From contig NZ_MKQR01000016.1 in the NCBI RefSeq assembly GCF_001940455.1, forward strand, positions 155,125-219,124: DNA of 64,000 nucleotides, in the 5' to 3' direction. Position 1 is the stretch's first letter. Every line of letters starts with the position of its first letter. The notes under the pieces are model-generated. The model saw only the letters and a program-made list of their open reading frames with translations. It made no database searches and was not told where the DNA came from. This document shows positions 7,144-27,884 of this stretch, piece after piece. The translations under genes and the position numbers were made by a program. The DNA is from Actinokineospora bangkokensis. Its GTDB lineage: Bacteria > Actinomycetota > Actinomycetes > Mycobacteriales > Pseudonocardiaceae.

Positions 7144-7162
7144 CGTGGGCGGGGAGGGCGCG

Positions 7163-8710: not shown

Positions 8711-10027
8711 ATGTCCGCAATGTCGGTTTCCCCGGGTGTGCAGGGCCCGATCCCGCGGCGGGTGGCGGTGGCCAGCGCGATCGGGACGACGATCGAGTGG
8801 TACGACTTCTACCTCTACGCCACGGCGTCGGCGCTGGTGTTCAGCCGCTTGTTCTTCCCCTCGGTCGACCCGGCGACCGGGACGTTGGCGGCGTTCGCCG
8901 CGTTCGCGGCGGGGTTCGGGGCGCGGCCGCTGGGCGCGGTGGTGGCCGGGCACCTGGGGGACCGGGTGGGGCGCAAGAGCGTGCTGGTGGGGGCGCTGCT
9001 GCTCATGGGCGGGGCGACCACGCTCATCGGGGTGCTGCCGACCTACGGGTCGATCGGGGTGCTGGCGCCCGTGCTGCTGGTGGTGCTGCGGACGTTGCAG
9101 GGGATCGCCGTGGGGGCGGAGTGGGGTGGGGCCGCGATCCTCACCGTGGAGCACGCGCCGCACGGGCGGCGGGGGTGGTTCGGGGCGTTCACGCAGATCG
9201 GGTCGCCCGCGGGGATGCTGCTGGCGACGGGGGTGTTCTGGCTCGTGCGGGTGAGCGCGGGCAACGAGGCGTTCCTGGCGTGGGCGTGGCGGATCCCGTT
9301 CCTGCTCAGCGTGGTGCTCGTCGGCGTGGGGTTGGCCGTGCGGTTGCGGCTGCACGACGCGCCGGAGTTCCAGCGGTTGCGCAGCCGGGGGGAGGTGGCC
9401 CGGTTGCCGGTGCTGGACGTGCTGCGGGCGGCGCCGGGGCCGGTGCTGCTCACCACCGGGCTGCGGCTGTCGCAGATCGGGCTCTACGTCCTGCTCACCA
9501 CCTACGGCCTGACCTACATCGCGAACAACCTCGGCGCGGACAGCGACGCCGGGTTGATCGCGGTGGTGGTGTCGTCCGCGCTGTCGATCCCCACGACCCT
9601 GCTGTGGGGGCGGCTGACGGACCGGTTCGGGCGCAAGCGGCCGTACCTGTTCGGGGCGGTGGGCGCGGTCGGGGCGCTCGCGCTGTTCTTCCTCGCCGTC
9701 GACACCGGGTCCACGGTGCTCATCGTGGCGTCGGTGGTGCTGGCGACGAGCCTGTTCTTCGACGCGATGGCCGCCGGGCAGCCCGCGTGGTTCTCCGAGC
9801 TGTTCCCGCTGCACCTGCGCTACAGCGGGGTGTCGCTGGGCTACCAGGTGGGGTCGGTGATCGCGGGCGGGCTCACCCCGCTGATCGCCGCGGCGCTGGT
9901 GCTGCTCGGGGACGGGCGGCCGTGGTGGGTGCTGGCCTACTACGGCGGGTTGGCGGTGCTGACGATCACGGCCGCGCTGCTGGCGCGGGAGACGGCGTTC
10001 GCCGAGCTGGACCGGCCGCGCCCCTGA
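8711..10027 (+). CDS. MHS-type (metabolite:H+ symporter) MFS transporter
   Basis: This 438-residue, 12-TM transporter has the hallmark N-terminus of the MHS family, ASAIGTTIEWYDFYLYATA. The loop 2-3 motif is GHLGDRVGRKSVLVG, LQGIAVGAEWGGA marks TM4, and the second-half motif is GRLTDRFGRKRPYLFG. Relatives import shikimate, alpha-ketoglutarate, proline/betaine or aromatic acids; the substrate here is not known. ATGs at 8711 and 8720 are both possible and neither has a strong ribosome site. Its final 62 bp overlap the convergent AAHS-type exporter, the last gene of the biosynthetic operon. Confidence 0.9.
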   Translation: MSAMSVSPGVQGPIPRRVAVASAIGTTIEWYDFYLYATASALVFSRLFFPSVDPATGTLAAFAAFAAGFGARPLGAVVAGHLGDRVGRKSVLVGALLLMGGATTLIGVLPTYGSIGVLAPVLLVVLRTLQGIAVGAEWGGAAILTVEHAPHGRRGWFGAFTQIGSPAGMLLATGVFWLVRVSAGNEAFLAWAWRIPFLLSVVLVGVGLAVRLRLHDAPEFQRLRSRGEVARLPVLDVLRAAPGPVLLTTGLRLSQIGLYVLLTTYGLTYIANNLGADSDAGLIAVVVSSALSIPTTLLWGRLTDRFGRKRPYLFGAVGAVGALALFFLAVDTGSTVLIVASVVLATSLFFDAMAAGQPAWFSELFPLHLRYSGVSLGYQVGSVIAGGLTPLIAAALVLLGDGRPWWVLAYYGGLAVLTITAALLARETAFAELDRPRP

Positions 10028-11186
10028 CGAGCAGGGCCAGCCCCGCCCCCGCGCACGCCAGGCCCGCCAGCACGAGGAACGGCCCGTCCGCGACGAGGAA
10101 GCCGACCACCAGCGGCCCGAGGATCCCGCCGACGCGGCCGAACCCGGTGCACCAGGCCACCCCGGCCCCGCGCACGGCGGTCGGGAACGCCGCCGCGGCC
10201 AGGCCGATGACCAGGATCTGCGTGCCGGTGGTGCCCAGCCCGACCACCGCCACCAGCACGACCACCGCGGCGGCGGGCGGTGCGGTGCCCAGGGCGAGCA
10301 ACCCCAGCGCGCCCAGGGCGAAGCAGCACGCGACCACCCGCCGGGGGCCGAAGCGCTCGGACAGCGGCGCGGCCAGCAACGCCCCCGCGATCGCGCCGCC
10401 GTTGAGCACGAGCAGCAGCACCAGCGACGCGCTCGTGCCGAAACCCGCGCGCCCCATCAGCTCCGGCAGCCACGTGCCGAGCGCGAAGACCAGCAGCAGC
10501 CCGATGCCGCTGACGAACCCCAGCACCACGGCGGGGACGCGCGCGGGTCCGGTGAACAGCCCGGCGAAGCCCGGCCTGCTCCCCCGGTCCGCGCGCCAGG
10601 ACGGCGATTCGCGCAGCTTCCACGCCGCCAGCGGCAGCAGCGTCACCAGCGGCAGCGCGCCGAGCCAGAACAGCCCGCGCCAGGTGAGGTCGTCGAGCAG
10701 CCACAGCGCGGCGAGGGTGCCCAGCACGCTGCCCAGCGGGATGCCGCAGTAGGTGGCCGTGGTGGCCAGCTGCGCGCGGCCCGGTGGGGCCAGCTCGGAC
10801 ACCAGGGTGCCGGTGGTGGCCACGACCGCGCCGATGCCGATCCCGGTGATCAGCCGCCACGCCCCGAAGGCGGGCACCGACGAGGTGAGCGCGGTGGCGG
10901 CCATGCCGACCGAGAACCAGGCGTAGCCGGTGAGCAGGACGGGCCGCCTGCCCCACCGGTCCGCGACCGCGCCCGCCGCCAGCGCGCCGACGAGCACCCC
11001 GACGAGCGCGCAGCTGCCCAGCAGCCCGGCGGTCTGCGGGGTGAGCTGGCCGAGCTCGCCGGGCGAGCGCAGGAACAGCGGCACCAGGGTGCCGTAGACG
11101 ACCAGGTCGTAGCCGTCGAAGACCAGCCCGGCCGTGCACAGCGCCACGGCCCACGCCGCGTCGCGGCCGGTGGCGGGGGTCGTCAT
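9966..11186 (-). CDS. MFS transporter, aromatic-acid:H+ symporter (AAHS) type
   Basis: This 406-residue, 12-TM protein starts MTTPATGRDAAWAVALCTAG and then has LVFDGYDLVVYGTLVP, the D-G-Y/F-D signature of the AAHS family (PcaK/BenK type) in TM1. The loop 2-3 motif is GAVADRWGRRPVLLTG. The C-terminus is Pro/Ala/Arg-rich. It is last in the minus-strand operon and its ATG overlaps the P450 stop by 4 bp, so it probably exports (or imports) the aromatic-acid-like product or precursor of the PKS pathway. That role is inferred from context. The last 62 bp overlap the convergent MHS gene. Confidence 0.9.
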   Translation of the reverse strand: MTTPATGRDAAWAVALCTAGLVFDGYDLVVYGTLVPLFLRSPGELGQLTPQTAGLLGSCALVGVLVGALAAGAVADRWGRRPVLLTGYAWFSVGMAATALTSSVPAFGAWRLITGIGIGAVVATTGTLVSELAPPGRAQLATTATYCGIPLGSVLGTLAALWLLDDLTWRGLFWLGALPLVTLLPLAAWKLRESPSWRADRGSRPGFAGLFTGPARVPAVVLGFVSGIGLLLVFALGTWLPELMGRAGFGTSASLVLLLVLNGGAIAGALLAAPLSERFGPRRVVACCFALGALGLLALGTAPPAAAVVVLVAVVGLGTTGTQILVIGLAAAAFPTAVRGAGVAWCTGFGRVGGILGPLVVGFLVADGPFLVLAGLACAGAGLALLVRGAAGPARRTPSPAPAARP

Positions 11187-12364
11187 CGGCCGAACCGCAC
11201 GGGCAGGGCGGCGAGGTTGAGGTGGCGGCCGTTGGCGTAGTGCCGCTCGACGGGGCCGTCGAGGCGCATCGGCGGCGCGGCGGCCAGCTCGGCGAGCACG
11301 GCGGTGATCTGCCTGCGGCCGAGCTGGGCGCCCAGGCAGTAGTGGATGCCCTGCCCCAGCGACAGGTGGCGGGCGGCGCCGCGGTCGAGGCGGAACTCCT
11401 CGGGCGCGGTGAACTCGTCGGGGTCGCGGTTGGCCGCGCCGACGGCGAGCAGGACGCGCGAGCCGCGCGGGAGGGTGGTGGTGCCGACGACCACGTCCTC
11501 GGTGGTGACCCGGCTGCCGTGGTCGACGGGGGCGTCCAGGCGCAGGGTCTCGTCGACGGCGGCGAGGCGGTGGCGGGCGTCGGGCAGGACGCGGGCGGCC
11601 AGCTCCGGGTCGCCCGCCAGCCGCCAGAGCAGGTGGCCGGTGGTGTTCATGGTGGTCTCGTGGCCCGCGATGGCGAAGGCGACGAGCATGACGCGCAGCT
11701 GCTCGTCCGGGACCGGGGCGCCGTCGACCCGGGTGCGCACCAGCTCCGCGAGGTAGGAGCCGTCGTGCGGGCCGCGGGCGCGGGCGATCTCGGCGTCGAG
11801 CAGCGCGGCGAACTGCGGCCAGAACTGCCCGCCGGAGGCCATGCTCGCCCACGTGGTGCGGGTGAGATCGAGGATGGCGCCGCGGGCGGCGGCGGAGAAG
11901 CCGATGGTGGTGGCGAGCACGGCCAGCGGCAGGGTGGTGGTCAGCTCGGCCACCAGGTCGGCCGAGCCGCGGCGCACCAGCGGGCGCACCACCTCGGCGG
12001 CCAGCTCGTCGATGCGCGGTTCGACCGCGCGCACCGCGGCGGCGGCCAGCGCCGGGCGCATGAGCGAGCGGAAGGCGGTGTGCTCGGGCGGGTCGTACTC
12101 CAGCGGGGCGAACCGGGGCTGGTCCGCGGCGCGCGGGAAGAACACCCCGGAGGCCGAGGAGAACCGGCCGTGGTCCTTCAGCGCGGCGAAGACGTGCCGG
12201 TAGCGGGCCAGGACCCAGAACCCGCCGTGGGCCTCGCTGTGCACGGGCTCGCCGCGCTCGCGCAGCCCCCGGTGCACCGCGACGGCGGTGTCGGGGGTGA
12301 ACCCCGGGTCGTGGTGGTCGAACCGCGCCACCAGGCGCTCCACTGTGGACATCTGCGTGGTCAT
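11183..12364 (-). CDS. Cytochrome P450 of the PKS-LuxC/E cluster
   Basis: This 393-residue soluble bacterial P450 has the I-helix AGHETT at 233-238, ETLR (ExxR) at 272-275 and the haem loop LSLGQGIHYCLGAQLG with the proximal Cys near 343. The usual Phe seven residues before the Cys (FGxGxHxC) is Leu here, a known but less common variant that can shift haem properties. The length is normal for the class. It is translationally coupled on both sides (ATGA overlaps with the exporter and with the KASIII-like gene). It is therefore a likely tailoring oxygenase for the polyketide or acyl product. Redox partners are not encoded nearby. Confidence 0.93.
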   Translation of the reverse strand: MTTQMSTVERLVARFDHHDPGFTPDTAVAVHRGLRERGEPVHSEAHGGFWVLARYRHVFAALKDHGRFSSASGVFFPRAADQPRFAPLEYDPPEHTAFRSLMRPALAAAAVRAVEPRIDELAAEVVRPLVRRGSADLVAELTTTLPLAVLATTIGFSAAARGAILDLTRTTWASMASGGQFWPQFAALLDAEIARARGPHDGSYLAELVRTRVDGAPVPDEQLRVMLVAFAIAGHETTMNTTGHLLWRLAGDPELAARVLPDARHRLAAVDETLRLDAPVDHGSRVTTEDVVVGTTTLPRGSRVLLAVGAANRDPDEFTAPEEFRLDRGAARHLSLGQGIHYCLGAQLGRRQITAVLAELAAAPPMRLDGPVERHYANGRHLNLAALPVRFGR

Positions 12365-13368
12365 GGGCGCTCCACCAGTGCGGCGGTCCAGGTGTAGCCA
12401 CCGCCGCCGTTGAACACGACGGCCTTCTCCCCGGGGGTGAGCAGGGCCGTGAGGTCGGCCAGGTTGGCGAGCAGGTCGCCCGCGCCGAGGTGGCCCGTGC
12501 CGTCCCCGAGGTCGAGCACCTCGGCGGTGGTCACCTCCGCGAACACCGGGCGGTACAGCTCGAAGGTGAGCCTGCCGATGCGCGGCAGGAGCAGGTACCG
12601 CAGGGTCGGGTCGTCGAGGGCGACGCCCGCGCGCTCGGCGGCGGTGACCACGACCCGCTTGGCGGTGGCGGTGGCCGTGCCGGTGAAGGCCTCGCGGGAG
12701 TGCTCCGCGAAGAAGGCCTTCTTGGTGCGTGCGAGGTCGATGGGCGCGCCCTGCTCGTGGCGGGCGGTGCTGAACGGGTCGTCGCCGCGGTGCATGCCCT
12801 CCAGCTCGGGCGCCGAGGCGCTGGCGAGACCGCGCAGCACCAGGGCGTCGCCCGCGCGCTGGGTGGCGGTGAGGACCATGGCGGTGCCCGCGTCGGCGTG
12901 CACCAGGCCGCGGTCGGAGCGCCAGCGGTCGAAGCCGGGCAGGCAGAACCGGTCGCCGGTGGTGACCACCGCGGCGGAGCCGGGGTTGGCGCGCAGCCAC
13001 GCCACGGCCAGCTCGGTGGCCGCGGCCCCGCCGTTGGACAGCTGCCGGACGCCGATCGGCAGCGCCGCGCCCGCCCCGACCTGGTCGGCCACGTAGTGCG
13101 GGGGCGACCACAGGTCGTGGCCCTGGTAGGTGGTCCAGGCGTGCAGGAGCAGGCCGACCTGGTCGGGGGCGACGCCGGAGGCCGCGAGCGCGCGGCGGGC
13201 GGCGTTGACGGCGAGGACCGGGCCGGGCAGGTCGGGGCCCGCGACCGGGACGCGGGTGTAGCCGGAGCGCTCGGCGTCGGCCTCGGTGAGGCGGCCGTCG
13301 GCCAGGGCGTCGGCCAGGCTCTCGCGGGTCTCGGGCAGCCAGGTGGCCACCGCGCGCACGGAGATCAC
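12361..13368 (-). CDS. Ketoacyl-ACP synthase III-like protein with altered active site
   Basis: This 335-residue protein has the thiolase-fold layout of FabH-like enzymes: an N-terminal VRAVATWLPETRES, LLLHAWTTYQGHD, and the C-terminal KAVVFNGGGGYTWTAALV. At the nucleophile position it reads RQLSNGGAAATEL, where families have an A-C-x-G-F-type motif, so Cys is replaced, most simply by Ser near residue 111. The His-containing PHQAN segment reads LLLPRIGRL, so the His also appears lost. Related proteins in aromatic PKS clusters move acyl groups between carriers (ChlB3/AviN type), and DpsC uses Ser as nucleophile. An acyltransfer role is therefore more likely than condensation. The GTG at 13368 overlaps the acyl reductase stop (GTGA). 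Confidence 0.85.
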   Translation of the reverse strand: MISVRAVATWLPETRESLADALADGRLTEADAERSGYTRVPVAGPDLPGPVLAVNAARRALAASGVAPDQVGLLLHAWTTYQGHDLWSPPHYVADQVGAGAALPIGVRQLSNGGAAATELAVAWLRANPGSAAVVTTGDRFCLPGFDRWRSDRGLVHADAGTAMVLTATQRAGDALVLRGLASASAPELEGMHRGDDPFSTARHEQGAPIDLARTKKAFFAEHSREAFTGTATATAKRVVVTAAERAGVALDDPTLRYLLLPRIGRLTFELYRPVFAEVTTAEVLDLGDGTGHLGAGDLLANLADLTALLTPGEKAVVFNGGGGYTWTAALVERP

Positions 13369-14822
13369 GCCGTGACCCCCTGCCGGTGCGGGGGGAAGAC
13401 GACGTCGAGCGGGTCGGCGCCCTCGGGCAGGTGCTCGTCGGTGGCCCAGCGCACCATCCGGCGGACGGGCTCGAACCCGTCCTGCGGCAGGGCCTGGTGC
13501 ACGCTGACGGCGCAGCCGAGCTCGACGGTGCGCTGCACGCCGACCAGCGGCAGCACCTCGCGCAGCTCGCGGCGCAGCGACGCCGGGTAGACCCCGACGG
13601 TCTGGGTGGCGGCGTCGAGGTGGCGGGCGGCGTCGGCGGCGGAGTCGACCGGGACGACGTTGGCCACCCGGCCCGCCAGCGACACCGCGAAGTCGACCGG
13701 CTCGTCGAGCTGGGAGACCACCACGGCGCCCTCGTCGCCGGTGCCGCCGACGACGGTGTGGAAGCCGCTGGTGCGCACCGCCCGCAGCTTCGCGCGCAGT
13801 TCGGGGTCCAGCGGCGCGGGCGTGGACACCTCGGGCGGGAGCAGGGCGAGGTGGGCGTGCACGCGGCGGGCCAGGTCCTCGGCGGCGGCGACCCCGGCGG
13901 GGCCGGTGCCGCAGGCGGCGTAGACGACCCGGGCGTTGACGCAGCCGACCTGGTTGAACGCGCCCACGTCCAGCGCCAGGCGCCGGGCGACGTCGTCGAC
14001 GGCGTCCGGGTGGAACGCCTCGGGGCCCAGGATCGTGGCGCTCTGCTTGGGGTCGAAGGTGACCAGCTCCAGCCCGGGTGCCAGGTACCCGACGACGTGG
14101 CGCACCGAGGCCATCCCGCCCCAGGCGACGATCTTGTCGAACGCGCCGGGGTGGTAGAGGCGCCGCTCGACCCCGGTGTCGCCGCCCTTCCAGTAGGCGA
14201 CCGACAGCGCCCGGGTGAGCGGGTGGTCGGGTGCCACCTCGGCCATGGTGCGGGCGAGCGCGACCATCGTCAGCGGGTCGTTGGACGGGGTCTTCACCAC
14301 CGCCTCGCCGCGGGTGATGGCGGTGCGCACCAGGGTCATCGCCGCGATGAGGGGGCTGTTGCCCGCGATCACGTGCACCGAGCGGACGCCGAAGGCGTGC
14401 ACGGCGCCGACCCGCCCGTCCGCGGTGCGCCGGGCGGGCCAACCGGTCAGGTGGTCGCGGCCGACGGCGGCCACGACCTCCTCGGTGGCCGCCCGGGTGA
14501 ACAGCGCGGCGAGCAGGCGGTAGTTGGAGCGGACGAGCTGCGGGGGCACGTCGGCCAGCCCCTCGGACTCCGCGACGGCCTCGGCCAGGTGGGGGTTGCT
14601 GTCCGGGTCCAGGCGCTGCCCCAGCTCGGCCAGGTAGTCCAGCACCTCGTCGAGGTCGAGCGCGTTGAGGGCGCGGGCGAGGTCGAGGTCCCGCGCGGCG
14701 AGGCGGGGGACGACCGCGGCCGGGTCCGGCGCGGCGAAGGGCTTGGCGCCCCGGCCGCCGAACTCCAGCAGCGGGCCGTCGACGAGTTCGCCGCGCACGA
14801 CGGCGGGCACGGTCAGCACCAT
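13365..14822 (-). CDS. LuxC-like NADPH-dependent acyl reductase
   Basis: This 485-residue protein of the LuxC acyl-CoA reductase family has an aldehyde-dehydrogenase fold. The nucleotide-binding region contains VRSVHVIAGNSPLIAAMTLV and RGEAVVKTPSNDPLTM. The likely catalytic Cys is in GAFNQVGCVNARVV, near residue 294, as in ALDH-type acyl reductases. LuxC reduces an acyl group handed over by LuxE to the aldehyde. It lies directly after the LuxE-like gene (TGATG, 1-nt overlap), as in lux operons, but luxAB and luxD are absent. In this operon the acyl group is probably the PKS product or another activated acid rather than myristate; that is inference. Confidence 0.88.
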   Translation of the reverse strand: MVLTVPAVVRGELVDGPLLEFGGRGAKPFAAPDPAAVVPRLAARDLDLARALNALDLDEVLDYLAELGQRLDPDSNPHLAEAVAESEGLADVPPQLVRSNYRLLAALFTRAATEEVVAAVGRDHLTGWPARRTADGRVGAVHAFGVRSVHVIAGNSPLIAAMTLVRTAITRGEAVVKTPSNDPLTMVALARTMAEVAPDHPLTRALSVAYWKGGDTGVERRLYHPGAFDKIVAWGGMASVRHVVGYLAPGLELVTFDPKQSATILGPEAFHPDAVDDVARRLALDVGAFNQVGCVNARVVYAACGTGPAGVAAAEDLARRVHAHLALLPPEVSTPAPLDPELRAKLRAVRTSGFHTVVGGTGDEGAVVVSQLDEPVDFAVSLAGRVANVVPVDSAADAARHLDAATQTVGVYPASLRRELREVLPLVGVQRTVELGCAVSVHQALPQDGFEPVRRMVRWATDEHLPEGADPLDVVFPPHRQGVTA

Positions 14823-16234
14823 CAGCCCTCCCCGGTGAGGTGGTCGAGCGCGGCCCGGTGGGCGCTGTCGGTGGCCGCGCAGTTGATCTTGTCGCCGTCC
14901 GGGAGGTCGGCCAGCCTGCGGATGCCGTCGTGCACCTGCGGGGTCGCCCGGCCGCAGTCGCACGGGTCGAAGGCGACGGTGATCCGGTCCTCGGAGCGGA
15001 ACCCGCCCCAGTGCGTCCTGGCCAGCAGGTCGACGAACGCCCCGCGCCCGGTGCGCGTGCCGGTGCGCGGCAGCGGCCGGTCGGTGGCCGGGTCGAGGAC
15101 GAAGGCGATCGTCCACGGCTCCAGGTGGTAGCGGCCCGAGGGGCACATGGGGTGCAGCGCGGTCGTCTCGGTCATGGCGTAGATGTGCTGGAGGCGGTCG
15201 GCGCCGGTGAACCGGCGCACCCGGTCCTGCCAGTCGTCGGGCATGTGCGCGCCCTTGGTGCCCCCGCCCGGTTCGACGAGCGAGTCGGCGGCGAAGACCC
15301 CGGTGCGGCCCGCGTCCAGGCCCGCGGTGGCGAGCTGGTGCAGGGTGTTCCAGGTGTTCATCAGGTAGACGCGCTCGCCCGCGAGGGTGTCGGCGAGGCG
15401 TTCGGCGAAGGCGGGCATGGCCGCCTCGGACTCGCGGCGCAGCCGCTCGAACTCCGCGCGCCTGGCCAGCAGGTCCGGGTCGGCCTCGACGGCCTCGCCC
15501 CGGGCCCTGGCGGCGGCGAGCTGCCCGGCGAGCAGCATCACGTCGGCGCTCATCCGCCCCGGGTGCATGGCGTGCACGTTGTGCTCGCCGCCCGCGACGT
15601 GCGCGGCGAGGGCGTCGGCGCAGCGCATGATGCCGCTGCGGCCGTGCCGGATCATCGGCCACACCACGGGCACCGGGTCCCCGCCGCCGCGCACCCTGGC
15701 GCCCACGACGGCGAACATCGCGTCGACCTCGGCGTGGGTGTGCGGGACGAACGACATCGTCCCCGAGGTCACCGACGAGTGCTGCACGCGCAGGTCGGTG
15801 TGCTCGTCGAGGGAGGCCAGCCAGTCGTCGACGCTGCCCGCCGCGGTGTCGGCGCCGGAGACGTCGACGGTGGTGAGCCTGCCCAGCCAGGCGGTGAGCA
15901 CGTCGAAGCGCTTCCGCCGCAGCAGGACCGACGGGTAGGACTTGTAGACCTGCGGGGAGAACAGCAGCGGGACGACGTCGTCGAGCTCGTGCAGCTCCGC
16001 CACGCCGGTGTCGGCCACGGTGGCGCCCAGCACCTCGACCCGCTCGCGCAGGTCCGCGAACCGCTCGCGCAGCGCGGCCAGTTGCAGCTCGGCCAGCTCG
16101 GTGCTGCCGAGCCGGTGCAGGGCGCGGTAGTCCCCGCCCGCCCAGGTCAGCGGGTCGTCGGCAAACGACCGGGCGTCGCTCGCCGTCGTGGTTCCTGCTG
16201 TCGTGGTTCCTGCCGTCGTCGTGCGCGGTGTCAC
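14822..16234 (-). CDS. LuxE-like acyl-protein synthetase
   Basis: This 470-residue protein of the LuxE family (ANL-related, ATP-dependent acid activation) has QHSSVTSGTMSFVPHTH as the adenylate-forming P-loop region, IYAMTETTALHPMCPSG as the A5-like motif, and THWGGFRSEDRI. A C-terminal Cys (DKINCAATDS, near residue 452) could be the acyl-accepting residue used by LuxE before transfer to LuxC. The GTG at 16234 overlaps the PKS stop (GTGA), with GGGAGGA upstream. The first residues are a Thr-rich 5-residue repeat (TTAGT) encoded by a 15-bp DNA repeat. It should activate the polyketide acid or accept it from the ACP; which of these is not visible. Confidence 0.87.
   Translation of the reverse strand: MTPRTTTAGTTTAGTTTASDARSFADDPLTWAGGDYRALHRLGSTELAELQLAALRERFADLRERVEVLGATVADTGVAELHELDDVVPLLFSPQVYKSYPSVLLRRKRFDVLTAWLGRLTTVDVSGADTAAGSVDDWLASLDEHTDLRVQHSSVTSGTMSFVPHTHAEVDAMFAVVGARVRGGGDPVPVVWPMIRHGRSGIMRCADALAAHVAGGEHNVHAMHPGRMSADVMLLAGQLAAARARGEAVEADPDLLARRAEFERLRRESEAAMPAFAERLADTLAGERVYLMNTWNTLHQLATAGLDAGRTGVFAADSLVEPGGGTKGAHMPDDWQDRVRRFTGADRLQHIYAMTETTALHPMCPSGRYHLEPWTIAFVLDPATDRPLPRTGTRTGRGAFVDLLARTHWGGFRSEDRITVAFDPCDCGRATPQVHDGIRRLADLPDGDKINCAATDSAHRAALDHLTGEG
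16183..16223. repeat. 15-bp tandem repeat inside the LuxE-like N-terminus
   Basis: CCGTCGTGGTTCCTG (16183-16197) and CTGTCGTGGTTCCTG (16198-16212) are followed by a partial third unit. It encodes a Thr/Ala/Gly tail ahead of the folded domain and may vary in length between strains. Confidence 0.8.
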
Positions 16235-19200
16235 TGGGCGGGTCCTCCCTGCTCGTGGTCCGCGGGGTGCGCGGGGATGGTGGTAGCGAGGTGCTGGGCG
16301 ATCGCGGCGGCGGAGGGGTGGTTCCACAGCAGGGTCGGCGCCAGCGCGGTGCCGACCAGCCGTTCCAGCCGCACCCGCAGCACCGCGCCCAGCAGCGAGT
16401 CCACGCCCTGCTCGGCCAGCCCGGCCCCGGCGTCGACCGCGGCGGGGTCGGTGCCCAGGACGGCGCCTGCGCACTCGCGGACGCGCGCGGTCAGCTCCGC
16501 CACCAGGGCGGGCCCGGTGAGCCCGGCCCAGGAGGGCGTGTCGTCACCCGTGCCCGCGGTGTCGACGGCGAGGGCGGCGAGCAGCGGCGGCCGCGCCCCG
16601 GCGTGGTCGGTGCGCACCGGCAGCACCGCGACCGGCCCGCCGCCGAGGTCGTGGCGCCGGGCCAGCACCCGGTCGAGGGCGGCCAGCGCGCGCTCCGCGG
16701 TGAGGTCGGCGCTGCCGCGGGCGTCCAGTTCGACGTCGGTGGCCGCGGCGGCGGTCGCCATGCCCAGCCCGCGCCAGGACGTCCACGCGATCGACACGCA
16801 CCCGGTGTCGCCCTGGTGCCTGCGCCGGGCGGCGAGCCCGTCCAGGCACCCGTTCGCCGCGGCGTAGGCGGCCTGGCCGGGCAGGCCCAGCAGCGGGCCC
16901 GCCGAGGAGAACAGCACCAGGAAGTCCAGGGTGCCCACCGGGAACAGCGCGTCGAGCACGTGCGCGCCGTCGACCTTGGCGCCCAGCACGACGTCGAGGT
17001 CGGCGGCGGTGAGGTCGGCGGCGGGTCCGCTGCGCACCTGCCCGGCGGCGTGGACGACCCCGCGCACCGGCGGCACGGGCAGGGCGGCGAGCGCGGCCCG
17101 CACGGCGTCGGCGTCGGTGATGTCGACGGCGGCGGTGAAGACGGTGGCGCCCGCGGCCTCGATGGCGCGCACGGCCGCGACCCTCGGGTCGTCGCCCTCC
17201 CGCTCCTGGAACGGGTTCGCCCGGGGCAGCGGGGTGCGGCCGAGGAGCACCAACCTGCGCGCGCCCCGGGCCGCGAGGTGGGCGGCCACCTGGAGGCCGA
17301 GCGCGCCCATCCCACCGGTGATCAGGTATGTGCCGTCGGGGCGGCAGGAAGGGGTCTGCGCGGTGCGGCCCAGTGGCACGGCCCGGGGACACAGCGCCGC
17401 GTCCGCAGTCACGGCGGTGACGGGTTCGGCGCCGGGGTGGGACAGGCGCGCGCGCAGGCGGGCGGTGACGGCCGGGTCCGGGGTTTGGTCGGGCAGGTCC
17501 AGGACGCCGCCGAAGCTCTCCGGGTGTTCGGTGGCGAGCACCCGGCCCAGGCCCGCGATCGCGGCGGACCCGGGGGTGGCCGTGCCCGCGTGGACGCCGG
17601 TGGTGACGGCCCAGACCCGCTTGCCCTCGGCGCCGCGCAGGACGTCGATCAGGGCGGGCACGGCGTCCCTCGGGTCGGGCGGCGCGGCGACGAGCACGTT
17701 GTCGGCGCCGGGTTCCGAGCCCAGGGCCTCGGCCAACCCCGGTGCACCGAGCAGGGTCAGCGGCGCGGGCGGGCCGTCGTCGGGGACGGGCTGCCACTGG
17801 ACGACGAACGCGGTCTCGGGGAGTTCGGGGCGGGCGGTGCGGGTGCCGTCCGGTTCGGCGTAGCGCAGGCCGGACAGGCGCAGCAGCGGGGTGCCGTCCT
17901 CCCCGAGCACGTTGACATCCACAGTGGACTCCGCGACCCGGCGGGCGACGACGACGGCGCGGTCCGGCGCGTCGGCGGCGACCACCAGGTCGTCGAGGGC
18001 GGCGGGCATGCGCAGCACCGGGTCGCCGCCGAAGACCACCGACGCCGTGGACAGCGCCGCGTCGAGCAGCGAGGCCCACCCGGGGTGGCGCAGCGCGCCG
18101 TCGGGGTCGGCGGCGACCTCGGCCACCAGCAGGTCCGGGCCGCCGGTCAGCTTGTCGACCCGCCACGGGAAGCCCATGGCGGCCACCCCGAGGTGGGCCA
18201 GCCGGTCGACCACCGCGCCGGCGTCCAGCGGTTCCGACGCGGCGGAGACGTCGACCTCCGGCAGGTCCACCGGCGTGCCGGGGCGGGCGGAGGAGTGCAC
18301 GGACCACTCCCCCTCCGGCAGGCGGGAGGCGATGCGCAGGGACCCCGCCTCGCGCACCACCTGCACCTCGCGGGCGGGGTCCTCGTCGTCGGGCACCGCG
18401 ACCGGGCGCAGCAGGCGCACGTCGGACAGCGCCTCGCCGCCCGAGGCGCACAGGTAGGTCAGCAGCGTCACCGCCGCGGGGACGATCTCGGTGCCGAGGA
18501 CGGGGTGGCGCCCGGGGTACGGGCGGGTGCGCACGTGCACGGTCGTCGTCCACACCCGGGCGGCGACCCCGTGCACGTCGACCCCCGCGCCCAGCAGGGT
18601 GTTGGGCGGGCCGGGCGGGAACGCGGGCGGGTGCTCCACCCAGTGCTCGCGGTGCTGCCAGACGACCCCCGGCAGCCGGACGCGGCGGCCCGGCGGGGTG
18701 CGCAGGTCGACCTCGACGCCGCGGCAGTGCAGGGCCGCGACCGCGTGCGCCAGCACGGCGCGCTCGGGCTTGCCGCGCCGCAGGCTCGGGATGACCACCC
18801 CGTCGTCGACGCCCTGCGCGGCCAGCGCCTCGGTGATGGAGTGCGCGACGACCGGGTGCGCGGAGACCTCCAGGAAAGTGCGGTGCCCGTCCTCCAGGGC
18901 CGCCGCCACCGCCTCGGCGAAGCGGACCGGGTTGCGCAGGTTCGCCGCCCAGTAGGCGGCGTCGTGCCGGTGGTCACCGCGCGGGTCGGGGAACGCCGTG
19001 GCGTAGAGGGGGATCCGCGGTGGCCGGGGGCGCAGGTCCGCCACGGCGTGCGCGAGGTCGGCGGCGAGCGGGGTCATGTGCTCGGTGTGGAAGGCGACGT
19101 CGGAGTCGACGCGGCGGACCGTGCGGCCGTCGCGCTCGAACGCCGCACCCGCCCGGACGACGGCGTCCACGTCGCCCGCGACCACGGTGGAGTGCGGCGA

Positions 19201-21228
19201 GGCCGCGATCGCCGCCGACGCGCCGGGGGTGTCGCGGAGCTGTGCCGCGCACTCGTCGAAGGGCAGGTCCACCAGCACCATCGCCCCGCGCCCCGCCACC
19301 CGGGGCAGCAGCGCCGAGCGGCGGCAGATCAGGCGCGCGGCGGACTCCTCGTCCAGCGCCCCCGCGGTGACGGCGGCGGCGATCTCCCCGACCGAGTGCC
19401 CGATGACCGCGGCGGGTTCGAGGCCGCGGGCCCGCCACGACGCGGCGAGACCCAACTGGACCGCGACGAGCGCCGCCTGGACGCGGTCGACGCCGCCGAG
19501 GTCGTCCGCCTCGATGACCTCGCGCGGGGTGACGCCCAGTTCCTCGCGGTAGACGGGGCCGAGGCGGTCGACGACGGCGGTGAAGTCCGGGTCGGCGCCG
19601 AGCAGGCCGCGGCCCATGCCGACCCACTGCGCGCCGTGGCCGGAGAACACCCAGACGGCGCCGCCCGCGCGCGCCGTGCCCGTCGTCCCCGAGCCGCCTG
19701 CGACAGCCCGCAGGCCCTCGACCAGCTCGTCGCGGTCGGCGGCCGTCACCACGGCCCGGTGCCGCAGGGCCGCTCGACCGCGCACCAGCGTCGTCGCCAC
19801 GTCCGCCAGCGACGGCGCGCCGGGCTCGACGAGGTCGTCCGCGAGGTTCGCGGCAGCGGCGGTCAGTGCGGCGGGTGAGGCGGCCGAGAGGGGGAAGTGC
19901 GCGGGCTCGACCAGACCGTCCTCACTAGACTTGACGATCGGGTCCGCTTCCTCCAGGACCACGTGCGCGATGGTGCCGCCGTAGCCGTAGCTGGCGACCC
20001 CCGCGCGCCGGGGGTGCCCGGGGTCGGGCCACTCGGCGCCCTCGGTGCTCGGCCGCACACCGGACTCCGCCCACGGCACGTCGGCGCGCAGCGACACCAG
20101 GCCCGCCACCGCGGGGACCCAGCGGTGCCGCAGCACCTGGATGGCGGCGATGACGCCCGCGACCCCGGCGGCTGCCTCCGTGTGCCCGATCGTCGCCTTC
20201 ACCGCGCCGACGCGGCACACGGGCAGGTCGGCCGGGCGGGCGTAGGCGGCGCAGAGCGCCGCGCCCTCCACCGGGTCGCCCGCCGCGGTGCCGGTGCCGT
20301 GCGCCTCCACGTAGCCCACGGTGGTGGGGTCGACGCCCGCCGCCGCGCACGCGGCCCGCACCAGGTCGGCCTGCGCGGCGGAGTTGGGGGCCATGATGCC
20401 GTCGGTGCGGCCGTCCTGGCGCACGGCGCTGCCGCGCAGCACGGCCAGCACCTCGTCGCCGTCCGCGCGGGCGTCGGCCAGCCGCTTGAGGACGACCACG
20501 CCGCAGCCCTCGCCCCGGCCGTAGCCGTCGGCGGCGGCGTCGAAGGGGGTGCTGCGCCCGTCCGGGCCGAGCGCGCCCGCCTCGGCGAGCACGGCGGTGA
20601 GGTGGGGGCCGTTCATCAGCATGACCCCGCCTGCCAGCGCCACCCGGCACTCCCCCGCCCGCAGCGCCGCGGCGGCCGAGTGCACGGCCACCAGCGAGGA
20701 CGAGCACGCGGTGTCCACCGCGACGCTGGGCCCGCGCAGGTCGAGCGCGTGCGAGACGCGGTTGGGCACCCCGCACAGAGACGCGCCGATGCCCGTCCAC
20801 GGGCGCACGTGCGGCAGGTCCTCCAGCAGCCTGCGCCCGTAGTCGTCGGTGCCGACCCCCAGGAACACCCCGGTGTCGGAGCCCGCGAGGGCGGTCGGGG
20901 CGATGCCCGCGTCCTCCAGGGCCTCCCAGCACACCTCCAGCGCCACCCGCTGCTGCGGGTCGAGCTGGTCGGCCTCACTGGTGGAGATGCCGAAGAAGGC
21001 GGCATCGAACCCGGCCACGTCGTCGAGGAAGGAGCCCAGCGCCGGGACCCGGGCCAGGGCGGCGGCGTGCTCGCGGGAGAGCGCGGCGGTGGGGCGCCAG
21101 CGGTCCTCGGGGACGGTGGTCGTGGTGGTGGCGCCCGCGCGCACCAGCCGCCAGAGGGCGTCGGCGGAGGTGGCGCCACCCGCGTAGCGGCAGCCGATGC
21201 CCACCACCGCGATCGCGTCGGGGCTCAT
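16231..21228 (-). CDS. Iterative type I polyketide synthase, KS-AT-DH-KR-ACP (6-MSAS type)
   Basis: The protein is about 1,665 residues in one module. The KS has DTACSSS (Cys ~175), EAHGTGT (His ~311) and KATIGHTEAAAG (His ~350). The AT has GHSVGE (Ser ~613) with VAFHTEHM, most like malonyl-specific ATs. The DH/thiohydrolase-like domain has HPVLGTEIVP, matching HxxxGxxxxP (His ~909), and a later Asp in LLDAAL. The KR has TGGMGALG, LFSSAG and the catalytic Tyr in GQAAYAAAN (~1456). The ACP has GVDSLLG (Ser ~1612). There is no thioesterase. Length and order match bacterial and fungal 6-methylsalicylate synthases (ChlB1/NcsB/6-MSAS group), so a small aromatic acid is the likely product. Start ATG 21228 begins the KS directly (MSPDAIAVVGIGC). 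Release probably needs the coupled LuxE/LuxC/KASIII proteins. Confidence 0.92.
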   Translation of the reverse strand: MSPDAIAVVGIGCRYAGGATSADALWRLVRAGATTTTTVPEDRWRPTAALSREHAAALARVPALGSFLDDVAGFDAAFFGISTSEADQLDPQQRVALEVCWEALEDAGIAPTALAGSDTGVFLGVGTDDYGRRLLEDLPHVRPWTGIGASLCGVPNRVSHALDLRGPSVAVDTACSSSLVAVHSAAAALRAGECRVALAGGVMLMNGPHLTAVLAEAGALGPDGRSTPFDAAADGYGRGEGCGVVVLKRLADARADGDEVLAVLRGSAVRQDGRTDGIMAPNSAAQADLVRAACAAAGVDPTTVGYVEAHGTGTAAGDPVEGAALCAAYARPADLPVCRVGAVKATIGHTEAAAGVAGVIAAIQVLRHRWVPAVAGLVSLRADVPWAESGVRPSTEGAEWPDPGHPRRAGVASYGYGGTIAHVVLEEADPIVKSSEDGLVEPAHFPLSAASPAALTAAAANLADDLVEPGAPSLADVATTLVRGRAALRHRAVVTAADRDELVEGLRAVAGGSGTTGTARAGGAVWVFSGHGAQWVGMGRGLLGADPDFTAVVDRLGPVYREELGVTPREVIEADDLGGVDRVQAALVAVQLGLAASWRARGLEPAAVIGHSVGEIAAAVTAGALDEESAARLICRRSALLPRVAGRGAMVLVDLPFDECAAQLRDTPGASAAIAASPHSTVVAGDVDAVVRAGAAFERDGRTVRRVDSDVAFHTEHMTPLAADLAHAVADLRPRPPRIPLYATAFPDPRGDHRHDAAYWAANLRNPVRFAEAVAAALEDGHRTFLEVSAHPVVAHSITEALAAQGVDDGVVIPSLRRGKPERAVLAHAVAALHCRGVEVDLRTPPGRRVRLPGVVWQHREHWVEHPPAFPPGPPNTLLGAGVDVHGVAARVWTTTVHVRTRPYPGRHPVLGTEIVPAAVTLLTYLCASGGEALSDVRLLRPVAVPDDEDPAREVQVVREAGSLRIASRLPEGEWSVHSSARPGTPVDLPEVDVSAASEPLDAGAVVDRLAHLGVAAMGFPWRVDKLTGGPDLLVAEVAADPDGALRHPGWASLLDAALSTASVVFGGDPVLRMPAALDDLVVAADAPDRAVVVARRVAESTVDVNVLGEDGTPLLRLSGLRYAEPDGTRTARPELPETAFVVQWQPVPDDGPPAPLTLLGAPGLAEALGSEPGADNVLVAAPPDPRDAVPALIDVLRGAEGKRVWAVTTGVHAGTATPGSAAIAGLGRVLATEHPESFGGVLDLPDQTPDPAVTARLRARLSHPGAEPVTAVTADAALCPRAVPLGRTAQTPSCRPDGTYLITGGMGALGLQVAAHLAARGARRLVLLGRTPLPRANPFQEREGDDPRVAAVRAIEAAGATVFTAAVDITDADAVRAALAALPVPPVRGVVHAAGQVRSGPAADLTAADLDVVLGAKVDGAHVLDALFPVGTLDFLVLFSSAGPLLGLPGQAAYAAANGCLDGLAARRRHQGDTGCVSIAWTSWRGLGMATAAAATDVELDARGSADLTAERALAALDRVLARRHDLGGGPVAVLPVRTDHAGARPPLLAALAVDTAGTGDDTPSWAGLTGPALVAELTARVRECAGAVLGTDPAAVDAGAGLAEQGVDSLLGAVLRVRLERLVGTALAPTLLWNHPSAAAIAQHLATTIPAHPADHEQGGPAQ

Positions 21229-21407
21229 CGGGCCGCTCGCCGGGTGGAGGGGGCGGGGAGGGTGCGCGCGTGCGCCACAGGGGCTCCGTTCTGCTCCGGG
21301 GGACGGGGGTCTGGCCGGGTCGGCGTGTTCCACCAGTGGGCGGCGTCAGCTCGTTCGCCGTGTGCCGGGCTATCCCGGGTGGACCAGGCGGGTGGGGCGA
21401 GCACGGT

Positions 21408-23000
21408 CTAGCGGGCCCAGACGACCCCGCCGAGGTCCCGCCCGCCCGCCCGCAGGACGGCGGCGCCCACCTCGGCGGCCCCCGCGTCGACCAGCGCGGT
21501 GAGCAGGTCCCAGCGGGTGGCGCCCGCGGCGGTGCCGTGGCGCAGGACGAGCAGCCCGCCCGCCCGGTCGACCACCTCGGGCGGGCCGTCGGTGGCGTCG
21601 AGGTGGTGCACCGGCTCGTCGTCGCGGCGCAGGCGCTCGACCACCCGGTCGACGAGCGCGGCCCTGGCCTCGCGTGCCGCGGCTTGCACCGCGTCCGGAG
21701 TACCGGTGCCCAGCAGGCGCGCCCAGCGGCTCGGGCTCTCCCGCCCGGCGGCCAACCCGCGGCCCATCGCCGTGCGCTGCGGCTTGCCGGTGGCCGTGGC
21801 GGTGAACGCGCCGAAGGCGAAGGCGGCGGGGCGCACCGCGGCGACCTCGGCGACCCGGCGCGCCGCGGCCAGGGTCGCCGCGGACACCTCCGCGGTGACC
21901 AGGCCGACCTCGTGGCCCAGCACGTCGTCGGGGACCCCGACGGCGGCGAAGGTGCCGGTGAGCCCGGCCTCCCGCCAGTCGCGCTCGACCTCCAGCGGGT
22001 AGTGCTTCTCCCCGCCCCGGTCGATGCGCTCGCTGCGGCGCCCGGTGAGCACGAGCAGCCCGTCGCGCTCGACGCCGAGGTCGCCGGTGCGCAGCCAGCC
22101 GTCCGGGGTGAGGGCGGCCGCGGTGGCCGCCGGGTCCTCCCAGTAGCCGCGCATGCGGTCGGCGGAGCGGATCCACACCTCGCCGGACTCCAGGCGCAGC
22201 TCGGTGCCCGGCAGCGGCGCGCCCACCGGCGGGTGCTGGGCCAGGTACCGCTCGGCCCAGGGCCCGGGGTCCAGGCGCGGGGTGGTGAAGGAGAAGTTGA
22301 CCAGCTCGGTGAGCCCGTAGCCCTGGCGCAGCCGGGGGCCGTAGCGGGCGTGGAAGCGGCGGGCGAGGTCGGCGGTGAGCGGGGCCGCCGCGGTGATCAG
22401 GTACTCCAGCCCGTCCGGCCACGGCGGGGCGGCGTCGAGCAGGTCGGGCAGCAGGGCGGGCACCACCGAGGCGGTGGCGACCTCCTTGGCGCGCAGGTCG
22501 GCGAAGTAGGCGGCCGGGTCGAACCCGGTGTGCAGCACCAGCGGCGTGCCGGTCAGGTGCGTGCCGACCAGGGACATGACCAGGGCGTTGCAGTGGTGCA
22601 GCGGCAGGCAGGTCGCGTGCGGGCGGTCGGGGCGGAAGCCGTGCAGCGCCGCGGTCTTGCGCGCGTTGCCGAACACCGCGTCCCTGGGCAGCATGACGCC
22701 CTTGGGCACGCCGGTGGAGCCCGAGGTGAACATGATCAGCCCGAGACCGGCCGCGTCGGGGTGCTCGGGGTCGGCCCCGGTGGTGGTGATCGCGTCGGGG
22801 GTGACCACGGCCGAGGCGCGGACCCGGGCGGCGACCTCCGCGCGGCGAGCTTCGGGGGTGCGCGGGTCGAGCGGGACGGCCACCAGTTCCCGGTCGAGGC
22901 AGTCCAGCAGCAGCTCGGCCAGCCGGTCGCCGCTGGGCAGGGCGAGCACGACGCGGGCGCCGGGCGGCAGGTCGGGCAGCTCGGATCCGGAGCGGGACAC
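21408..23000 (-). CDS. AMP-dependent synthetase/ligase with an extra C-terminal region
   Basis: This 530-residue ANL enzyme has FTSGSTGVPKGVML as the phosphate loop, GYGLTELVNFS, the GDLG Asp, TGRRSERIDRGGEKHYP as the hinge region and GKPQRT with the catalytic Lys. The N-terminal subdomain is shortened. After the ANL C-domain another ~120 residues follow (from about GRESPSRWARLL to VVWAR) that I do not recognise; they end in a small alpha/beta-like segment. The GTG at 23000 has GGAGGAG 7 nt upstream. It is first in the operon, 179 bp ahead of the PKS start, and could load a starter or activate the acid for LuxE/LuxC. The substrate is unknown. Confidence 0.88.
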   Translation of the reverse strand: MSRSGSELPDLPPGARVVLALPSGDRLAELLLDCLDRELVAVPLDPRTPEARRAEVAARVRASAVVTPDAITTTGADPEHPDAAGLGLIMFTSGSTGVPKGVMLPRDAVFGNARKTAALHGFRPDRPHATCLPLHHCNALVMSLVGTHLTGTPLVLHTGFDPAAYFADLRAKEVATASVVPALLPDLLDAAPPWPDGLEYLITAAAPLTADLARRFHARYGPRLRQGYGLTELVNFSFTTPRLDPGPWAERYLAQHPPVGAPLPGTELRLESGEVWIRSADRMRGYWEDPAATAAALTPDGWLRTGDLGVERDGLLVLTGRRSERIDRGGEKHYPLEVERDWREAGLTGTFAAVGVPDDVLGHEVGLVTAEVSAATLAAARRVAEVAAVRPAAFAFGAFTATATGKPQRTAMGRGLAAGRESPSRWARLLGTGTPDAVQAAAREARAALVDRVVERLRRDDEPVHHLDATDGPPEVVDRAGGLLVLRHGTAAGATRWDLLTALVDAGAAEVGAAVLRAGGRDLGGVVWAR

Positions 23001-23532
23001 GGGCGACTCCTCCAGTCGTCGGTTCTCGCAGGGGGTCCGGGGCTCATCGCTCGGCACCGGGAAATCGCGGGACAATGGCAGGGCGGGTGGGGCGGGACAA
23101 TGGCAGCACGGGCAGGGCGGGGACAATTTCAGCGCAGGCGTCGAACCGATTCCCGGGGCGGCCGCGGCACGGGCTGCCCCGATCTCCCCGACTGCCGCGG
23201 GTACGTCCGGCGCCAGTGGCACTGATAGTACATATCGGTCATAACAGGCGCCACCTGCGGGTGACAGTTCACCAACGCACCGGAGTATGGGCAGCTCAGC
23301 ACGTGATCAACCCGCGGCTCCCCAGCCCCGGCCGTCGTCCGACCGGGGGTAACCCGAGGGGGTGACGAGCCGCCGCGGCGGCAGCGGTCGCCGGGGAAAC
23401 GCACCGGGAATGCGCGCCGACCCGTTCCTCCGCTACCGTGGGAACCATTCCGTCGGCATTCCCCGCCGGCAGGTCCCCGACATTCCCGCGCCCACCCCAG
23501 GACCGGTGCGCGGTGCCGAGGAAGGATTTCCC
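23001..23532. promoter_or_regulatory. Divergent control region between the AMP ligase and the malonyltransferase
   Basis: These 532 bp carry no convincing gene. An unusually AT-rich patch at 23222-23246 (containing GTACATATCGGTCATAAC) stands out and could hold the −10 elements of one or both promoters. Next to it is a 5+4+5 palindrome, GGTGA-CAGT-TCACC, at 23260-23273. The LysR regulator two genes away is a candidate binder, but no T-N11-A site was confirmed. Confidence 0.45.
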
Positions 23533-24729
23533 ATGCCGACCCCGTTCGTGCTCAGCGCGCCCACGCGGGCGGACCTGCTCGCGCTCGCCGGGTCGGTGGG
23601 CGGCGGGGTGGACCCGCGCGACCTGGCCGCCCGCGCCCGCCAGGACCACCCCTTCCGCGTCGTGCTGCTCGCGGAGGGGCCCGCCGACCTCGACCGGCTG
23701 CCCGCGCTGGCGGCGGCGGCCACCGCACGACCCGAGCCGGGGCCGCTCGCCCTGCTGTTCTCCGGCCAGAGCAGCCAGCGGCTCGGCATGGGCGAGCAGC
23801 TGCGGCGGGCGTTCCCGGTGTTCGACGCGGTGCTGGCCGAGGTCGAGGAGCAGGTGCGCCCGCTGCTGCCCGCGCCGCTGCGCGAGGTGGTGGCGGGCGA
23901 CGACCCGGACCCGCTCGACCGGTGCGCCAACGCCCAACCAGCGCTGATGGGCGTGGGCCTCGGGCTCGCGGAGCTGCTGCGGGTGGCGGGGGTGCGGCCC
24001 GACTACGTGTGCGGGCACTCCTTCGGCGAGTACGTCGCCGCCGCGGCCACCGGTGTCTGGTCCACACAGGACGCCGCCACCATCGTGGCCCGGCGCGGCC
24101 TGCTGATCGACGACCTGCCGCCCGGCGGCGGGATGGTCGCGGTCGAGGCGCCGGAGGCCGACGTCACCGCCGAGCTGCCACCCGGGGTGACCATCTCGGC
24201 CGTGCACAGCCCCACGTCGGTGGCGGTCGCCGGTCCGGTCGAGCTGGTCGAGCGGGTCGCCGCGGTCTTCGCCGCCCGCGGCGCGCGCACGGCCCGGCTC
24301 GGGGTCGGCGGCGCCTACCACTCCCCCGCCGTGGAGCCGGTGCTCGCGCCGCTGGCCGAGGTGATCGCCGCGCACCCCGCCAAGCCCGGCGGCGTCCCGC
24401 TGGTCAGCAACACCACCGGCGGGGTCGTGCCCCCCGGGGACCTGGCCACCCCCGAGCACTGGGTGCGGCACTGCCGCCAGCCGGTGCTCTGGTCGGGCGT
24501 GATGAGCACCCTGGTGGCCCAGGGCGTGGGCACCTTCCTGGACGTGGGGCCCAGCGGCGCGCTGGGCAGGCTCGCCGCCGCGTGGCTGCCCGAGGACCGG
24601 CGGGGGTCCGTGGTGGCCTCGCTGGGCGCCGAACCCGACGAGGTGACGGCCCTGCTCACCGGGCTGGCCCGGCTCGACGCCCGCGGCCACCACGTCGACT
24701 GGGCGGCCGTCCTCGACGCCCTGGCCTGA
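23533..24729 (+). CDS. Discrete malonyl-CoA:ACP acyltransferase (PKS-type AT)
   Basis: This 398-residue protein resembles an AT domain cut from a modular PKS. An N-terminal linker (PFVLSAPTRADLLALAGSV) is like KS-AT linkers. FSGQSSQRLGMG, the nucleophile motif GHSFGEYVAAAATG and GVGGAYHSPAVEPV follow, and the end is DVGPSGALG. The ATG at 23533 has AGGAAGGA 6 nt upstream. Since the PKS already has its own AT, this enzyme may serve another carrier protein or act in proofreading or hydrolysis. It is divergent from the operon, and the LysR gene follows on the same strand 32 bp later. Confidence 0.87.
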   Translation: MPTPFVLSAPTRADLLALAGSVGGGVDPRDLAARARQDHPFRVVLLAEGPADLDRLPALAAAATARPEPGPLALLFSGQSSQRLGMGEQLRRAFPVFDAVLAEVEEQVRPLLPAPLREVVAGDDPDPLDRCANAQPALMGVGLGLAELLRVAGVRPDYVCGHSFGEYVAAAATGVWSTQDAATIVARRGLLIDDLPPGGGMVAVEAPEADVTAELPPGVTISAVHSPTSVAVAGPVELVERVAAVFAARGARTARLGVGGAYHSPAVEPVLAPLAEVIAAHPAKPGGVPLVSNTTGGVVPPGDLATPEHWVRHCRQPVLWSGVMSTLVAQGVGTFLDVGPSGALGRLAAAWLPEDRRGSVVASLGAEPDEVTALLTGLARLDARGHHVDWAAVLDALA

Positions 24730-27763: not shown

Positions 27764-27884
27764 GGTTTCTTTCTAACCGCAGGCGCGCGGCCGTGTCGAA
27801 CGACCGTGGCGAACGGCTCGGCCGATGGGAGCGATCGGGAATCCCCGTTGGACGGCGTACCCTGCGCGGGCGCAGGCTCGGGGC

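Follow-up and report, generated by a model that had tools for sequence, protein, structure and literature searches.

A remote LuxE/LuxC-type pair encoded with a lone type I polyketide synthase in Actinokineospora bangkokensis, and a candidate route from polyketide acid to aldehyde

In the bioluminescence pair LuxC-LuxE, the acyl group is accepted by the C-terminal cysteine of LuxE, and in fungi reductive domains and carboxylic acid reductases are found. A related case may be provided by the structures 3hgu, 3hgv, and 3l2k, which we take to be those of the EhpF/EhpG system of griseoluteic acid biosynthesis, where the substrate is a phenazine. For actinomycetes, GriC/GriD of grixazone biosynthesis have been described as a two-protein aryl acid reductase (cited in PMC10179220), in which an AMP-binding activator and a reductase convert a non-polyketide aromatic acid to the aldehyde. 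Acyl transfer by relatives of ketoacyl synthase III (KASIII) has likewise been reported. In chlorothricin biosynthesis, as set out in an excerpt of PMC9573744, ChlB3 handles 6-methylsalicylic acid (6-MSA) beside the 6-MSA-making polyketide synthase (PKS) ChlB1 and has a Cys-His-Asp triad; it delivers the acid to an acyl carrier protein (ACP). DpsC, as described in part of PMC12664062, carries a Ser-His-Asp catalytic triad and primes a type II PKS.

The locus considered here lies in a window of 64,000 nucleotides, the whole stretch of DNA that was analysed, and shares with the lux system (PDB 7xc6) a member of the LuxC family, a remote LuxE homolog with a C-terminal cysteine, and adjacency of the two genes. 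It differs in that the partner is a PKS, no LuxD-like gene was identified, and the LuxE-like protein is about 100 residues longer (470 versus 370 aa for lux LuxE). A bioluminescence operon could be ruled out, as no luciferase family was detected in the 16 window proteins (between 1617 and 29105) covered by the Pfam scan. As in GriC/GriD, likened here by description only, an adenylating protein and a reductase are encoded side by side in a biosynthetic operon, with a presumed aromatic substrate in the present case. Two-protein aryl-acid reduction is itself already known from that system, and the PKS-linked LuxE/LuxC pair may be regarded as a variation on such systems. Among the matches listed in a search of open-licence PMC papers, a LuxC/LuxE pair acting with an iterative PKS was not described. 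The genes are as follows.

8711..10027, plus strand, convergent: MFS transporter, shikimate/metabolite symporter-like (TIGR00883, 389 bits, cut-off 443)
9966..11186, minus strand: MFS transporter (TIGR00895, 220 bits, below the cut-off of 419)
11183..12364, minus strand: cytochrome P450 (PF00067, 79 bits; heme Cys343)
12361..13368, minus strand: DpsC-like KASIII (Ser111-His293-Asp298)
13365..14822, minus strand: LuxC acyl reductase (PF05893, 145 bits; Cys294 codon at 13941-13943)
14822..16234, minus strand: LuxE-like protein, predicted to activate acids (codon of relay Cys452 at 14879-14881)
16231..21228, minus strand: type I PKS, KS-AT-DH-KR-ACP by Pfam domains, 1665 aa (start possibly at 21333)
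21408..23000, start uncertain, minus strand: AMP-dependent acyl ligase, FadD-like (PF00501, 144 bits)
23524..24729, start uncertain (ORF from 23362), plus strand: discrete acyltransferase (PF00698, 155 bits)

The preliminary description of this DNA, which had named a PKS, LuxE-like, LuxC, and KASIII-like proteins, a P450, and a transporter as translationally coupled, is confirmed in its gene content: every named gene is present in the window on the minus strand. They lie in one operon in which neighbours, read from MFS transporter to PKS, share 4, 4, 4, 1, and 4 bases, in agreement with the proposed coupling. That description overlooked the acyl ligase and the discrete acyltransferase, although the right boundary it had set at 24729 coincides with the end of the latter, a cluster member it had missed. 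The transporter it had assigned to aromatic acids is an MFS protein (MFS_1, 140 bits) whose nearest family is the aromatic acid/H+ symport family TIGR00895, with a score under the cut-off.

The KS, AT, KR, and ACP domains of the PKS score above their Pfam cut-offs, and the N-terminal part of the DH reaches 26.2 bits against a cut-off of 27; the active-site motifs are nonetheless intact in all seven aligned PKSs, those of the DH included. The protein is a single module with neither ER nor thioesterase in the Pfam scan, and tblastn against the whole 64-kb window revealed no second PKS, the sole match being the discrete acyltransferase. Among solved proteins, those closest in sequence are modular DEBS and mycocerosic acid synthase. 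With 1136 bits, the top NCBIfam match stays below its model's cut-off of 1740. The terms '6-MSAS-type', 'aromatic', and 'iterative' describe the probable character of the enzyme, as inferred from domain order and its lone-module status. A tRNA-Thr predicted inside the PKS gene was taken as a false positive.

Taken singly, the LuxE-like protein has no match to PF04443, its only Pfam match being AMP-binding below the cut-off (E 3.7e-4), and a single-sequence search of the PDB returned nothing at E up to 1. A PF04443 search of its own genome also returned nothing, a weak control: this model matched in one of 14 control genomes and exceeded the cut-off in none. At the family level, PF04443 matches at E up to 1 in five of the 12 members (best 2.8e-7), hhalign relates the family to LuxE (PF04443) with a probability of 98 and an E of 2.6e-13, and 7xc6_E ranks first in the homology search. 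This chain is absent among the best 50 of 799 Foldseek matches listed and is present in a separate fold comparison, in which 115 of 118 residues were superposed (rmsd 1.6), so that profile and fold agree on PF04443-type kinship. The earlier label 'LuxE-like' is therefore weak for this one protein and holds for its family. Structure prediction yielded an acid-adenylating fold of the PaaK/NatL2 type, with the ATP-site residues retained. Because one of the matches tied at the top in Z, 2-hydroxyisobutyryl-CoA ligase, takes a non-aromatic acid, the modelled fold leaves the substrate unfixed and is only compatible with an aromatic acid. The entries 3hgu, 3hgv, and 3l2k also appear among the fold matches as 'phenazine antibiotic biosynthesis protein', with about 10-11% identity over the aligned part.

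Assignment of LuxC is direct, with its PF05893 score standing against a cut-off of 21 and an E of 8e-27 to PDB 7xc6. Its Cys294 is kept in all 12 rows of the alignment and coincides with the active-site cysteine of lux LuxC, while Cys452 of the LuxE-like protein aligns with the C-terminal cysteine of lux LuxE and is invariant (29/29 rows); these two residues are presumed to be the acyl-relay cysteines. Judged by these comparisons, the two proteins are remote yet real relatives of the bioluminescence pair. The KASIII-like protein matches Pfam below cut-off and the solved structures of DpsC, CerJ, and ChlB3 strongly, DpsC being the closest (PDB 4xs7, E 7e-55). It seemingly lacks the Cys, His, and Asn of FabH, but a degenerate enzyme was ruled out by its Ser111-His293-Asp298 triad, which matches that of DpsC; it therefore probably transfers acyl groups.

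The PKS-LuxE-LuxC-P450 set was found in 12 clusters from Actinokineospora, two ant-associated Pseudonocardia (on plasmids), and other actinomycetes, with a P450 ortholog in every one. Apart from these two Pseudonocardia, a plasmid search with the PKS gave PKSs of 38-41% identity (best 12 of 138 matches listed). The LuxE proteins of PKS-linked clusters form one clade, as do the LuxC proteins (clade supports below 95), and protein distances of PKS, LuxE, and LuxC are correlated across these clusters. On these three grounds the linkage is non-random and chance neighbourhood was ruled out. Five clusters (sub-type A) carry the ligase, the discrete acyltransferase, and the KASIII together, with ligase relatives at 62-76% identity and the divergent acyltransferase, present in all five, at 52-59%. 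Another five (sub-type B) keep PKS, LuxE, LuxC, and P450 and show no match to ligase, acyltransferase, or KASIII.

The reading we favour, with a probability slightly above even for the operon scheme as a whole, is that LuxE and LuxC reduce the acid made by the PKS, likely an aromatic one, to an aldehyde that the P450 then processes. The lone and probably iterative PKS would make a polyketide acid that is small and partly reduced, in all likelihood an aromatic one resembling 6-methylsalicylate, to be released by hydrolysis or through transfer by the Ser-type KASIII where this is present. LuxE would activate the acid with ATP and load its own Cys452, after which the acyl group would pass to Cys294 of LuxC and be reduced with NAD(P)H, both residues being assigned by comparison. 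The P450 would subsequently oxidise the ring or side chain, aldo-keto reductases, carried by some relatives' clusters and not found in the window, might process the aldehyde further in those relatives, and an MFS pump would export the product. In sub-type A, ligase, discrete acyltransferase, and DpsC-like KASIII could provide a second acyl-handling step, for a non-acetate starter or for acyl-group transfer.

The preliminary interpretation is partly supported. Its proposed conversion of a polyketide acid to an aldehyde agrees with both the retained cysteines and the fold for acid adenylation; the alternative it offered, by way of the KASIII, cannot hold for all clusters, because this protein was not seen in five of the 12 clusters in the sequence read (one of the five on a cut contig). 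The recurrence, clades, and correlated distances lend good support to the view that LuxE and LuxC serve the PKS and not fatty acids unrelated to it. The opposite proposal, that the pair makes a fatty or other small aldehyde distinct from the PKS product, for example a partner that the KASIII would later attach to the polyketide, appears unlikely. In its favour, classical LuxE/LuxC substrates are fatty acids, the operon has a separate acyl ligase, and 29 of 41 LuxE-like loci compared have no PKS match, so that such a pair can also work on other acids. Against it, the pairs linked to a PKS group in a separate clade and vary together with that enzyme, and sub-type B shows no ligase or KASIII to join two parts. 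Similarly doubtful is direct capture of the chain from the PKS ACP by LuxC, with or without LuxE, as a trans-acting reductive release with no free acid. The missing thioesterase, the overlapping genes, and LuxC's own nucleophile would suit it, whereas the retained ATP-site residues of LuxE speak for a free acid being activated. More improbable still is a Ser-type KASIII acting as LuxD, by which an aryl chain would move from the PKS ACP to Cys452 of LuxE and on to Cys294 of LuxC, releasing the aldehyde without a thioesterase or built-in reductase domain.

Priming of the PKS with a non-acetate starter by KASIII, discrete acyltransferase, and ligase, followed by reduction of the resulting alkyl-aryl acid by LuxE/LuxC, is a tangible possibility at somewhat worse than even chances; it concerns sub-type A only and is compatible with the favoured acid-to-aldehyde scheme. 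Type II PKSs are known to be initiated by a set that combines a priming KS of the DpsC type with an additional acyltransferase (part of PMC12664062), the triad matches that of DpsC, and the three genes occur together in the five sub-type A clusters and are unmatched in the five of sub-type B. On the other hand, two clusters (G915 and G931) have the KASIII with no ligase or discrete acyltransferase match in the loci read, the relative ChlB3 instead moves finished 6-MSA (excerpt of PMC9573744), and such priming of a type I PKS, the class found here, is without precedent in the literature consulted.

Should the acid-to-aldehyde scheme be true, bacteria would own a trans-acting, two-protein means of converting polyketide acids to aldehydes, comparable in effect to fungal reductive domains or carboxylic acid reductases. 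Aryl aldehydes could then be made with a compact tool that runs on ATP and NADPH. The scheme would also point towards an undescribed actinomycete metabolite family, present on ant-symbiont plasmids as well, and the range of substrates taken by LuxE/LuxC-like pairs beyond bioluminescence would become testable.

Three flanking genes, a LysR gene (~24798-25637), an OYE-like gene at 26642, and an MFS gene at 27825, were rejected as cluster members, having no ortholog adjoining the cluster in two Actinokineospora relatives. One LysR match was recorded in locus L100 (31%, E 8e-6). The two Actinokineospora relatives do keep the convergent MFS gene (8711..10027) next to the cluster, with 87% identity.

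The LuxE/LuxC genes in the window (G+C of 0.70–0.80 per 2-kb step; 32-contig assembly totaling 7.45 Mb) belong to a minus-strand operon headed by an acyl ligase and a polyketide synthase (PKS), in which adjacent genes from the PKS to the MFS transporter overlap by 4, 1, 4, 4, and 4 bases. The preliminary description had rightly labeled the PKS, LuxE, LuxC, KASIII, P450, and transporter but had named neither the acyl ligase nor the discrete acyltransferase.

Genes of the cluster and its borders (window positions)
21408–23000, minus strand: acyl ligase
16231–21228, minus strand: PKS
14822–16234, minus strand: LuxE-like
13365–14822, minus strand: LuxC
12361–13368, minus strand: KASIII-like
11183–12364, minus strand: P450
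9966–11186, minus strand: MFS
about 23524–24729, divergent to the operon: discrete acyltransferase
8711–10027, convergent to the operon: second MFS gene

Just beyond the cluster lies an mpaB/rubber oxygenase catalytic domain protein (PF09995, 241 bits; 7109–8074), for which no match was found beside the cluster in relatives. A tRNA-Thr (agt) called by ARAGORN on the plus strand within the PKS gene (18915–18999) is probably a false positive.

Clusters combining PKS, LuxE, and LuxC with a P450 no less than 48% identical were found twelve times and fall into three sub-types by gene content. Sub-type A (five clusters), which adds the acyl ligase, KASIII, MFS, and discrete acyltransferase, comprises the window, A. 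pegani, A. spheciospongiae, and two Pseudonocardia strains from Apterostigma ants, HH130629-09 and HH130630-07, which carry the cluster on plasmids (pLS1-1 and pLS2-1) and are both known selvamicin producers according to an excerpt of PMC7763482. The presence of the cluster on these plasmids, flanked in both by transposase genes, suggests its transfer between hosts. Sub-type B, also five clusters (a second A. spheciospongiae locus, G662, G725, G1067, and G1641), gave no KASIII or acyl ligase match in the available sequence, the G662 contig being only 6,294 bases long. In the two sub-type C clusters (G915 and G931), KASIII is present, the P450 is divergent, and no ligase match was found in the loci.

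A cupin gene stands upstream of the PKS, between it and the acyl ligase, in four of the five sub-type A clusters; the window alone lacks it (21228–21408), and a search of its own genome gave no match, an empty answer of a kind that carries little weight. Its position is occupied in four of the five sub-type B clusters, the fifth contig being cut, by an EF-hand (calcium-binding-like) protein of ~190 aa just upstream of the PKS (L010:5162–5746, L088:11250–11819, L118:2184–2756, and L145:15404–15961), an odd associate for a PKS. Four of the twelve clusters (both Pseudonocardia plasmids, G915, and G931) carry an aldo-keto reductase, adjoined in G915 and G931 by an alcohol dehydrogenase; both enzymes, absent from the window, would be fitting partners for an aldehyde product.

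The Pfam scan of the window PKS placed KS, AT, KR, and ACP above cut-off and the N-terminal part of DH just below, and detected no thioesterase; no second PKS occurs within the 64 kb. Seven aligned PKSs (window, L006, L008, L010, L080, L081, and L088) all keep what we take to be the active-site motifs, namely the KS Cys and His motifs, AT GHSVGE, DH His motif and Asp, KR Lys/Ser/Tyr/Asn, and ACP Ser motif. This fits a 6-MSAS-like enzyme, presumably of the iterative and aromatic character earlier proposed, although among solved proteins it comes closest in sequence to the modular DEBS and to mycocerosic acid synthase, and the top NCBIfam model is a general type I PKS, scoring below its cut-off.

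LuxC matches PF05893 (145 bits) and the LuxC of the solved LuxC–LuxE complex 7xc6 (E 8e-27), and is 26% identical to a lux-operon LuxC encoded on an E. coli K-12 plasmid, with whose Cys its C294 aligns. This residue is invariant in all 12 rows. Within the genus, LuxC is present in 3 of 16 genomes examined. The solved proteins closest to KASIII are DpsC (E 7e-55), CerJ (6e-36), and ChlB3 (3e-34), and S111, H293, and D298 are the counterparts of DpsC S118, H297, and D302. These residues are invariant in two five-row alignments covering seven different clusters, including the 44–46% identical G915 and G931 proteins. DpsC performs self-acylation and acyl transfer (PMC12664062, in extract), and ChlB3, with Cys-His-Asp, carries 6-MSA from the PKS ACP to another ACP (PMC9573744, in part).

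What the comparison shows directly is gene content, homology, conserved residues, and co-inheritance; the mechanism most likely runs as follows. The PKS would produce an acid, LuxE would activate it and carry the acyl group on its presumed relay residue C452, and LuxC would accept this group on C294 and reduce it to an aldehyde, which may be finished by the P450 and, in some relatives, the aldo-keto reductase and alcohol dehydrogenase before export by the MFS pump. We infer the acid's structure, its release from the PKS, and the action of LuxE/LuxC on it; the acyl ligase, acyltransferase, and KASIII may serve in starter choice or acyl transfer. EhpF/EhpG have reportedly been proposed to reduce an aromatic acid as a pair of proteins. 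Such a two-protein reduction is known from GriC/GriD (PMC10179220, partial text), and 6-MSA pathways with KASIII transferases are already known (excerpted PMC9573744). Among the open-licence PMC papers listed by the literature searches, none was found that describes a PKS associated with LuxE/LuxC.

Among 41 LuxE-like loci compared (best matches rather than a random sample, 14 retrieved with a LuxC query, two lux-type yardsticks excluded), 12 contain the PKS and 29 gave no PKS match with an E-value of 1e-3 or lower. The distance between LuxE and LuxC is at most 300 bases in 39 of these loci and 2.8 kb in L020, and L093 lacks LuxC; of the 26 loci retrieved with LuxE, 25 have LuxC. In both 42-row trees, the 12 rows linked to a PKS group together as a single clade, with SH-aLRT supports from a quick search of 93 (LuxC) and 87 (LuxE), both below the 95 mark; LuxE row L147 was dropped by the tree program. 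Distances of PKS, LuxE, LuxC, and P450 correlate at r 0.90–0.99 (9 of 12 clusters; 0 of 2000 permutations as high), a figure flattered by two close pairs. These patterns are most simply explained if a LuxE/LuxC pair was recruited once to this PKS family and has been retained since.

The PKS-linked clade adjoins mycobacterial LuxE/LuxC pairs (joint branch 99 for LuxC, 97 for LuxE), which neighbor a luciferase-like oxidoreductase annotated as F420-dependent (L014:7282–11428 and L152:5382–9461). Both loci additionally encode an SDR and a kinase-like protein, and a P450 is located nearby. LuxE/LuxC-like pairs occur as well in Hodarchaeota metagenome assemblies (L019, L020, and L021), with LuxC identities of 41–43%.
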